DNA of 64,000 bases from Limnohabitans sp. (lineage in GTDB: Bacteria > Pseudomonadota > Gammaproteobacteria > Burkholderiales > Burkholderiaceae_C): NCBI GenBank assembly GCA_009693505.1, contig SHXD01000007.1, positions 1-64,000 of the forward strand. Direction: 5' to 3'. This document shows, in pieces, positions 42,030 through 44,473 of the stretch. The number at the start of each line of letters is the position of its first letter. Positions within the stretch are counted from its first letter, which is position 1. The notes under the pieces were generated by a model that made no database searches, was not told where the DNA came from, and saw only the letters and a program-made list of their open reading frames with translations. Made by a program: the position numbers and the translations under genes.

Positions 42030-43289
42030 ATGCACCTTGATGACCTCACTCAAACTGACACCCTGGGTGGCCGCTTGAGCCTGCCGCCACATCACATCAC
42101 GCGTGGTTTGGTGCTCATGGGAGGTGGCGCCAGAACGGCCTACCAAGCCGGCGTTTTGAAGGCCTTGGCTGAGTTGATCAAGCCGCCGGGTGGCAAGGCC
42201 ACCGCCTTTCCCTTCCAAGTCTTGGTGGGTACTTCGGCAGGCGCTCTGAACGCCACCTATTTGGCCAGTCGGGCCATTGACGGCTTAGCAGCATTGAGCG
42301 GACTGGGCGAGTTTTGGCAGGGTCTGCATTCTCGTTGGGTCTACCACCTGCCCGAAACACCCATGGCTCAGTTCAGCCGCTGGGCAACGGCATTGGGCGT
42401 CACCCTGTCGGCCCGCAAACAAGGCGCCGCGCTTGACAGCATGCCACTGGTGGACACCTTGCACCGACGAATTGCCCTGAACAACATCGATCTGGCATTG
42501 ACACGGGGAGACCTGAAAGCCTTGGCCGTCACGGCCTCCAGTTACACCACGGGGGTGCACTGGACTTTTTGTCAAACTCACCAACTGCAAAGTGCTCAGG
42601 CATGGAATAGGCCCGGGCGCCGCGCCGAATTGCAAGACATCACCATAGAGCATCTGATGGCCTCGAGTGCCATTCCTTTTTTATTTCCAGCCACACCGCT
42701 TTGGGTCGACGGCAACATGGAATACTTCGGCGATGGCTCAATGCGGCAAAGCTCACCGCTTTCTCCTGCCGTGCACTTGGGCGCCAACAAAATTTTGGCC
42801 ATTAGCGTTGGGCAACATCAACGAAGTTCCATGGACCTATCGGGTTCTAGCTTTCAGGCCAGCCCAGCCAGCAAACAGAGGCCCAGTCTTGGCAACATTG
42901 CAGGACATGCGATGGCCAGTGTGTTCAACGACACCTTGATGGCCGATGTTGAACAAGTCCAACGCGTGAATCAAAGCATTCAACAGCTAAAAAATCACCT
43001 TTCTGAGCACCACGGTCTGGCCCTGGCTCAGTCCCTGCCATTTCGAGAGGTGGAAGTTTTGGCCATGCAGCCCAGTGAGTCACTTGACGCCTTGGCCCAA
43101 GCGCATGTCCATGAACTGCCGCGGCCAGTGCACCGTGTCTTAGAGGGGCTCGGTGCATTGAATGGCTCGGGCGCCGGGCTTGCGAGTTATCTTTTATTCG
43201 AACCCGGATTTTTACGCGCACTCATGGCTCTGGGTGCTCAAGACGTGACATTGCGCAAAGAAGAACTCTTGGATTTTTTCAGCGATTAA
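42030..43289 (+). CDS. Patatin-like phospholipase family protein
   Basis: LVLMGGGARTAYQAGVLKAL; GTSAGALNA; DGSMRQSSPLSPAV. Confidence 0.92.
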   Translation: MHLDDLTQTDTLGGRLSLPPHHITRGLVLMGGGARTAYQAGVLKALAELIKPPGGKATAFPFQVLVGTSAGALNATYLASRAIDGLAALSGLGEFWQGLHSRWVYHLPETPMAQFSRWATALGVTLSARKQGAALDSMPLVDTLHRRIALNNIDLALTRGDLKALAVTASSYTTGVHWTFCQTHQLQSAQAWNRPGRRAELQDITIEHLMASSAIPFLFPATPLWVDGNMEYFGDGSMRQSSPLSPAVHLGANKILAISVGQHQRSSMDLSGSSFQASPASKQRPSLGNIAGHAMASVFNDTLMADVEQVQRVNQSIQQLKNHLSEHHGLALAQSLPFREVEVLAMQPSESLDALAQAHVHELPRPVHRVLEGLGALNGSGAGLASYLLFEPGFLRALMALGAQDVTLRKEELLDFFSD

Positions 43290-43304
43290 GTGCCATAATC
43301 CGAC

Positions 43305-43486
43305 CCATCATTATTTTGGAGTTTGCTCCGTGGAAAGCCACCCTAGTTGGTAGCTTTCGAATGAGATGGTTCCAGTGCTGCGCACCTAGATGCAGCTTAG
43401 CCAGTCGTTCGAAAGCTGCTTTGCCCTCATTGCCGCCTTATCGAACACTTGGCCCCCCAGTTTTTGGGGGCTGAAGGAGATCTGCC
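43305..43486 (+). promoter_or_regulatory. Structured corA 5' leader with candidate leader-peptide ORF and competing helices
   Basis: Possible SD GGAG (43318-43321), GTG GAA AGC CAC CCT AGT TGG TAG (43330-43353); arms GAAAGC 43333-43338, GCTTTCGAA 43353-43361, TTCGAAAGC 43408-43416; hairpin CCCCCAgttttTGGGGG 43454-43470 beside AAGGAGA. Confidence 0.6.
43330..43353 (+). CDS. Candidate leader peptide, M(V)ESHPSW
   Basis: SD-like GGAG 8 nt upstream of GTG; seven codons, then TAG placed against the first nucleotide of a helix arm. Confidence 0.45.
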   Translation: MESHPSW

Positions 43487-44473
43487 ATGCTCAACATTTT
43501 TACGCTAGCCAACGGCCGCTTGGTCCAGGAAGAGATTGAATCTCTGGAAGAGTTGTCCAAGTTCCAGCCTATTTGGGTCGACCTTGAGTCGCCCACTGTG
43601 GAAGAAAAACGTTGGATCAAACAATACTACGGCCTGTCCATTCCAGAAGATGCGATGGACGAGGACATTGAAGAATCTGCGCGCTTCTACGAAGAAGACA
43701 ACGGCGAGTTGCACATTCGCTCTGACTTTTTAATTGCCGACGAAGACGAGCCCCGCACAGTTCGCTGCGCCTTCATTCTGAATCTGCAAAACGCCGACCT
43801 GCGCAGCATCGGCGTACTGTTTTCCATCCACGACGAAGACGTGCCTGTGTTTCGCTTGCTGCGTTTGCGTGCGCGCCGTGCGCCAGGCCTGCTGGAAGAT
43901 GCCAAAGCCGTGTTGCTTAAGCTGTTTGATGCCGACGCGGAATATTCAGCTGACACACTGGAGAACATTTACGACAAACTTGAAATTGCGGGCAAGTTAG
44001 TCTTGTCTGGCGACGTGACCGATGCCATGGCCGGTGAAGTGCTGGGCGCCATTGCACGCCAAGAAGATTTGAACAGCCGCATTCGCCGCAACGTGATGGA
44101 CACACGCCGCGCGGTGAGTTTCATGATGCGAAGCAAGATGCTCAATGCCGAGCAGTTTGAAGAAGCACGTCAAATTTTGCGCGACATTGATTCACTCGAG
44201 TCGCACACTGAATTTTTGTTTGAAAAGATCAACTTCTTGATGGACGCCACTGTGGGTTTCATCAACATCAACCAGAACAAGATCATCAAAATCTTTTCAG
44301 TGGCCAGTGTGGCCTTGCTGCCGCCCACGCTCATTGCCAGTTTGTACGGCATGAACTTTCAGTACATGCCCGAGCTGTCGCAAACCTGGGGCTATCCGTA
44401 TGCGCTGTGCCTCATGGTGGCCAGTGCCGTGGTGCCCATGTGGTACTTCCGCAGACGCGGCTGGCTTAAGTAG
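43487..44473 (+). CDS. corA: Magnesium/cobalt transporter CorA
   Basis: Two C-terminal TM segments with YGMNFQYMPEL (GMN motif). Confidence 0.95.
   Translation: MLNIFTLANGRLVQEEIESLEELSKFQPIWVDLESPTVEEKRWIKQYYGLSIPEDAMDEDIEESARFYEEDNGELHIRSDFLIADEDEPRTVRCAFILNLQNADLRSIGVLFSIHDEDVPVFRLLRLRARRAPGLLEDAKAVLLKLFDADAEYSADTLENIYDKLEIAGKLVLSGDVTDAMAGEVLGAIARQEDLNSRIRRNVMDTRRAVSFMMRSKMLNAEQFEEARQILRDIDSLESHTEFLFEKINFLMDATVGFININQNKIIKIFSVASVALLPPTLIASLYGMNFQYMPELSQTWGYPYALCLMVASAVVPMWYFRRRGWLK

Follow-up and report, generated by a model that had tools for sequence, protein, structure and literature searches.

A probable CorL-type leader peptide of seven codons and competing RNA helices upstream of corA in Comamonadaceae

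Introduction

The corA gene of the window (the whole 64,000-nucleotide stretch of DNA analysed here, from the freshwater bacterium Limnohabitans sp.) is preceded by a leader that probably represents a short betaproteobacterial CorL, that is, a translated seven-codon upstream open reading frame (uORF) that serves as a cis switch for corA. Comparison across related corA leaders brings out the coding frame of the uORF, its CorL motif and a helix between two RNA arms, B and C.

corA was long treated as a constitutive housekeeping gene for a Mg2+ channel. A response of the E. coli gene to Mg2+, exerted through its leader and corL, was demonstrated only recently (PMC11552253). On sequence comparison, what appears to be new here is a seven-codon CorL variant in Betaproteobacteria whose stop codon abuts arm B; no description of a corA leader peptide in Betaproteobacteria was found in the literature searched, outside which the original Salmonella corL paper lies. 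A seven-codon CorL-like peptide that shows the key residues (an acid at position 2, P or H followed by S or P, then R or W) across a large betaproteobacterial family offers a small natural test case for the idea that the first nascent residues let the ribosome sense Mg2+.

The corA leader in the window

All features of the leader lie on the forward strand. An extended -10 promoter element (TGcCATAAT, 43291-43299) would start transcription near 43306. A patatin-like open reading frame (42030-43289, named from its sequence) ends just 5' of this conserved box, and its last codons would therefore contain any -35 region that the corA promoter has. A Shine-Dalgarno (SD) sequence, GGAG (43318-43321), is followed after 8 nt (43322-43329) by GTG GAA AGC CAC CCT AGT TGG TAG (43330-43353), seven codons and a stop that encode MESHPSW. 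The uORF end is separated by 133 bases from the corA start codon, an ATG at 43487 that stands behind the SD sequence AAGGAG (43474-43479). corA itself (43487-44473) encodes a Mg2+/Co2+ transporter of 328 aa that shares 44% identity with E. coli CorA along its length.

Arm A, GAAAGC (43333-43338), coincides exactly with uORF codons 2-3 and is complementary to GCTTTC (43353-43358), the first base of which is the last base of the TAG. Arm B (43349-43364, core GCTTTCGAA at 43353-43361) overlaps the uORF end and can pair with C or A. An earlier sequence-only reading of this DNA had described the spacing of GGAG and uORF, the position of arm A and the overlap of stop codon and arm B in the same way, and the sequence agrees on each count. 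That reading had further proposed that GGAG pairs with CTCC (43326-43329), between the SD sequence and the uORF start, as a gate on leader translation. Such pairing is available in 60 of 171 leaders, and a leader's own partners pair no better than species-swapped ones, which leaves the hairpin gate unsupported.

Conservation of the uORF and evidence for its translation

An SD sequence and an eight-codon frame in one genome are no evidence of a gene; it is comparison that takes the case beyond chance. corA loci were gathered from named genomes and from the genus, order and family, together with 80 further family leaders. The uORF is present in 199 of 226 Comamonadaceae corA loci, corresponding to 174 distinct leaders. 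Its SD sequence is GGAG in 149 of the 174 and SD-like in 164. The -10 box [CG]ATAAT occurs in 168 leaders (159 with TGn) at a median of 30 nt upstream of the uORF start, and the same pattern occurs in 1 of 160 for a control stretch. The exact motif pattern matches 43 of 151 family genomes at one site each, and every site with known corA coordinates lies just upstream of corA; a control pattern has no match.

The codons of the uORF vary in the manner of a coding sequence. Because the search pattern required NTG, invariance of the second and third start-codon bases is partly built in; C at the first base was permitted and never found, the 174 leaders having A in 48, G in 58 and T in 68 and thus starting with ATG, GTG or TTG. 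Glu or Asp is encoded at codon 2 (GAN) in 170 of 174, the exceptions being Lys (L065, L174) and Leu (L056, L062). A single leader lacks CCN at codon 5, whose third base is C in 55, G in 59, T in 58 and A in 2; codon 6 is serine encoded by AGT or TCT, and codon 7 is CGG or TGG. Codon 8 is TAG in 136 of 174 leaders; in Variovorax and several other lineages it is CAG, GTG, ATG or CTG, and the frame continues through arm B.

Substitutions mapped on a corA tree of 119 leaves follow the same pattern. Position 1 of the uORF changes 12 times, always among ATG, GTG and TTG, and positions 13-14 never change. Position 15 changes 16 times, near the average of 18.8 for corA third codon positions, and the first base of codon 7 changes 22 times. 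Among 59 independent species pairs, all changes in codons 5 and 6 are synonymous, changes in codon 2 are mostly Glu to Asp or the reverse, and all seven start-codon changes exchange one start for another. The interchange of starts without C, the acidic codon 2 and the fixed CCN with a free third base argue that the seven-codon leader uORF is almost certainly translated. Amino-acid conservation with synonymous bias, which the sequence-only reading had put forward as a check, is thus found family-wide.

A broken uORF is rare. Frame-breaking indels and lost starts in relatives, which that reading had named as counter-evidence, are confined to a frame-breaking deletion at locus L188 and to start-codon loss at loci L214 and L228 of a single genus (g227). 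The entire corA leader is lost at L114, L193, L171, L204, L208, L231, L237 and L240, which belong to several genera. Loci with a broken uORF or a lost leader are natural knock-outs and leader-less comparators. In several leader-less loci, the -10 box lies near the corA ATG. At locus L256 (G789), the CorA match contains one in-frame TAG, possibly a pseudogene, a sequencing error or a recoded stop.

Kinship with CorL

E. coli K-12 YsgD (b4799) is a small protein annotated without function and encoded where corL lies, upstream of corA (L249:1719-1775, equal to NC_000913.3 4001218-4001274). It has a TTG start and the sequence MDTPSRYWLTILSSRINS, and reads as CorL. Other Enterobacterales leaders encode MDTPSRCW..., MDTPSKYW..., MDIPSRPSLL and also MDSHSR, and a Pasteurellaceae leader encodes MDSHSRYRISL. 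Enterobacterial CorL extends over 10-18 codons, with an N-terminus like that of the Comamonadaceae uORF. The family peptide profile is M[ED][TS]xPS[RW], with T or S as third residue, and the motif common to E. coli CorL, the Pasteurellaceae leaders and the family is M-[DE]-x(1-2)-[PH]-[SP]-[RW].

Against the family profile, E. coli CorL (MDTPSR) scores 13.0, which corresponds to P = 2.5e-5 among random peptides and P = 2.6e-4 among shuffles of its own sequence. Deep family lineages encode MDSDHPR, MDQSHPR, MDVPPSR and MDSDHSR, peptides that, as sequences, bridge the family motif to Pasteurellaceae MDSHSRY. The profile match and the bridging peptides overturn the earlier view that the window's peptide is unrelated to CorL in sequence.

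The likeness to CorL might also be a product of convergence on a ribosome-destabilising motif (acidic residues plus proline, as in the EPDP of MgtL) instead of descent, an account that deserves serious weight without being the one to bet on. It concerns origin and can hold together with a CorL-type switch function. Consistent with convergence, the corA upstream regions sampled from other Burkholderiales and other Gammaproteobacteria did not contain the motif. One family member, locus L197 (G634), encodes MEPDPSW (MEPDPSWQLSTPA), the residues 2-5 of which are the exact EPDP of E. coli MgtL; EPDP is found only there, and the acidic residue 2 and P5 are conserved across the family. E. coli MgtL as a whole scores 3.8 against the family profile (random-peptide P = 3.9e-3). 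Convergence is harder to reconcile with the occurrence of the motif at the same gene, in the same position and often with the same TTG start, and with the shared order [DE]-[TS]-x-P-S-R at the low random-peptide probability given above for CorL.

Competing helices

The core of arm B is complementary to TTCGAAAGC (43408-43416), the core of arm C (43400-43420), and the predicted minimum-energy helix joins 43349-43364 with 43405-43420. Outer B:C pairs are standard in 86.6% of cases, as against 27-64% (maximum 63.5%) when the arms are slid along each other, and own duplexes are better than species-swapped ones in both leader groups. Deep lineages have replaced both arms wholly (ACCGTCCACTCC with GGAGTGAGACGGT) yet keep them complementary, with a duplex energy of -21.7 for own and -19.4 for swapped partners (sd 0.43). 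Swapped-partner tests leave some shared ancestry, and the sliding and wholesale-replacement results are more robust. The comparative evidence for the B:C helix is strong.

Arm C has an alternative partner in arm D (TCGAACACTTGGC, 43441-43453), which pairs with 43400-43412 and is predicted to do so when B is masked. In the Limnohabitans-type group, the C:D duplex energy is -9.63 for own and -8.20 for swapped partners (sd 0.26). In 116 leaders, the corA SD sequence can base-pair with the distal half of B (own -10.45, swapped -8.94, sd 0.15), in lineages with ACTCCC/GGGAGT; the window's own group shows no B:SD covariation (own -4.00, swapped -3.95). A:B pairing is weakly supported by the sequences, own partners pairing slightly better than swapped ones and most leaders having a mismatch at pair 8-25. 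Covariation and folding thus define two mutually exclusive leader structures, B:C and C:D (with A:B or B:SD). The earlier claim that a leader peptide is translated ahead of corA, next to mutually exclusive helices, is supported.

In predicted folds, 97-98% of leaders favour B:C immediately after transcription of C, and B:C is still possible with a ribosome whose P site holds codon 3. A ribosome at the uORF stop reduces B:C to 0, and C:D gains 12-14 pairs. In full-length folds, B:C and C:D are near-balanced.

The RNA between C and the SD sequence is 49% C and 14% G in 116 leaders, and a C-rich, G-poor stretch (C/G reaching 2) occurs in 35% of the window's group versus 94% of the other group. 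This composition is suggestive of Rho loading, less so in the window's group. A predicted G+C hairpin, GGCCCCC-loop-GGGGGC (43452-43471), stands right before the corA SD sequence; in the leader sequences it is limited to the window's clade, within which the stem sequence varies. The hairpin recalls stem E in the corA leader of E. coli, a structure reported to prevent Rho termination before corA. An intrinsic terminator was rejected, as no T-run follows either this hairpin or C.

A predicted switch

The folds predict a switch in which the position of the ribosome on the uORF selects the helix. By translating the uORF through to the stop, a ribosome would cover B, so that B:C cannot form, and C would pair with D once B is masked. 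After the ribosome departs, B would pair with the corA SD sequence in lineages with ACTCCC/GGGAGT and turn corA off; in many lineages, Rho could also load, to the same effect, onto the C-rich RNA that separates C from the SD sequence. Early fall-off or slowing at the acidic and proline N-terminal codons, or failure to initiate, would leave B free while C is made, B:C would form, and corA would be on. Completion of the uORF should thus give C:D (with B:SD), and early loss or no initiation should give B:C.

The signal and the sign of the response are suggested by known leaders. E. coli corA goes down as corL is translated more and goes up when the corL start codon is lost, and corA expression depends on Mg2+ and Rho (PMC11552253). 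At low Mg2+, acidic residues and prolines close to the N-terminus of MgtL make ribosomes drop off (PMC11282234). By analogy, we infer that low Mg2+ would promote early ribosome loss and turn corA on, and that high Mg2+ would permit completed translation and turn corA off, with Rho or the SD sequence as the output. The least certain steps are Mg2+ as the signal and the choice between Rho and SD pairing as the route to the off state. More tentatively still, the CorL start M-[DE]-x(1-2)-[PH]-[SP]-R might be a dedicated Mg2+-responsive nascent-chain signal common to Beta- and Gammaproteobacteria. If true, the Comamonadaceae version would need only seven codons and rank with the shortest leader peptides that sense metals, the ribosome itself being the sensor.

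It is unlikely that the switch is set by ribosome arrest or slow termination at PS[WR]-stop instead of by early drop-off, perhaps in response to a signal other than Mg2+ such as arginine or tryptophan supply or release-factor activity. The predominance of TAG at codon 8, directly before B, and the loss of B:C in folds with a ribosome at the stop would fit such an arrest. The sequence-only reading, in which a terminating or stalled ribosome decides which helix forms, proves too narrow, since Variovorax and other lineages have a sense codon in place of the stop, which speaks equally against arrest, as does the longer enterobacterial CorL with the same N-terminus. The frequent exchange of CGG and TGG at codon 7 implies that no single tRNA is monitored; tRNA-specific attenuation on that codon was considered and set aside, R and W interchanging freely. 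Across the compared leaders, the conserved properties are the N-terminal motif and the coverage of arm B rather than arrest at the stop.

That conservation is mainly of RNA (arms A and B and the promoter) with an incidental frame is very improbable: codons 2-4 and 7-8 do overlap arms A and B, and, as GAN and CCN always encode an acid and proline, those residues would persist under RNA constraint alone, but the start varies among A, G and T without C in any change, C14 is invariant though unpaired in A:B and base 15 is free, serine switches between AGT and TCT, the leader SD sequence is conserved, and deep lineages replace arms A and B completely and keep M-D-x-x-[HP]-[PS]-R-stop, and a pure-RNA reading was rejected on the start-codon and third-base evidence.

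Comparison with known systems

The closest counterpart of the translated seven-codon leader is CorL (E. coli YsgD, b4799, and Salmonella corL), likewise a uORF with a ribosome-binding site in a corA leader, with weak start codons (TTG) and alternative leader structures. The N-termini correspond, MDTPSR in E. coli and M[ED]TxPS[RW] in the family. Unlike the longer CorL, the family uORF has its stop at arm B, its arms differ in sequence, and B appears to pair with the corA SD sequence in most of the family. The MgtL leader of mgtA, with its EPDP and intrinsic ribosome destabilisation, also precedes a Mg2+ transporter gene and shares the acidic residue 2 and proline 5, whereas the window's uORF precedes corA, not mgtA, and has ESHP instead of EPDP.

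As in attenuators of the trp and his type, four RNA arms would compete (A:B with C:D, or B:C) under the control of a translating ribosome, but the leader has no intrinsic terminator in C:D and no run of control codons. No Rfam family matches the window's leader or the Comamonadaceae loci scanned above the gathering score, RF02899 among them. The comparison identifies RF02899 (AaHKsRNA54, Aggregatibacter sRNA 54), catalogued as an sRNA, as the Pasteurellaceae corA leader itself in sense orientation, corL included, with matches at L303:1270-1380, L250:2572-2688 (minus strand) and L297:1298-1420; it may be an attenuated leader transcript instead of a free-standing sRNA.
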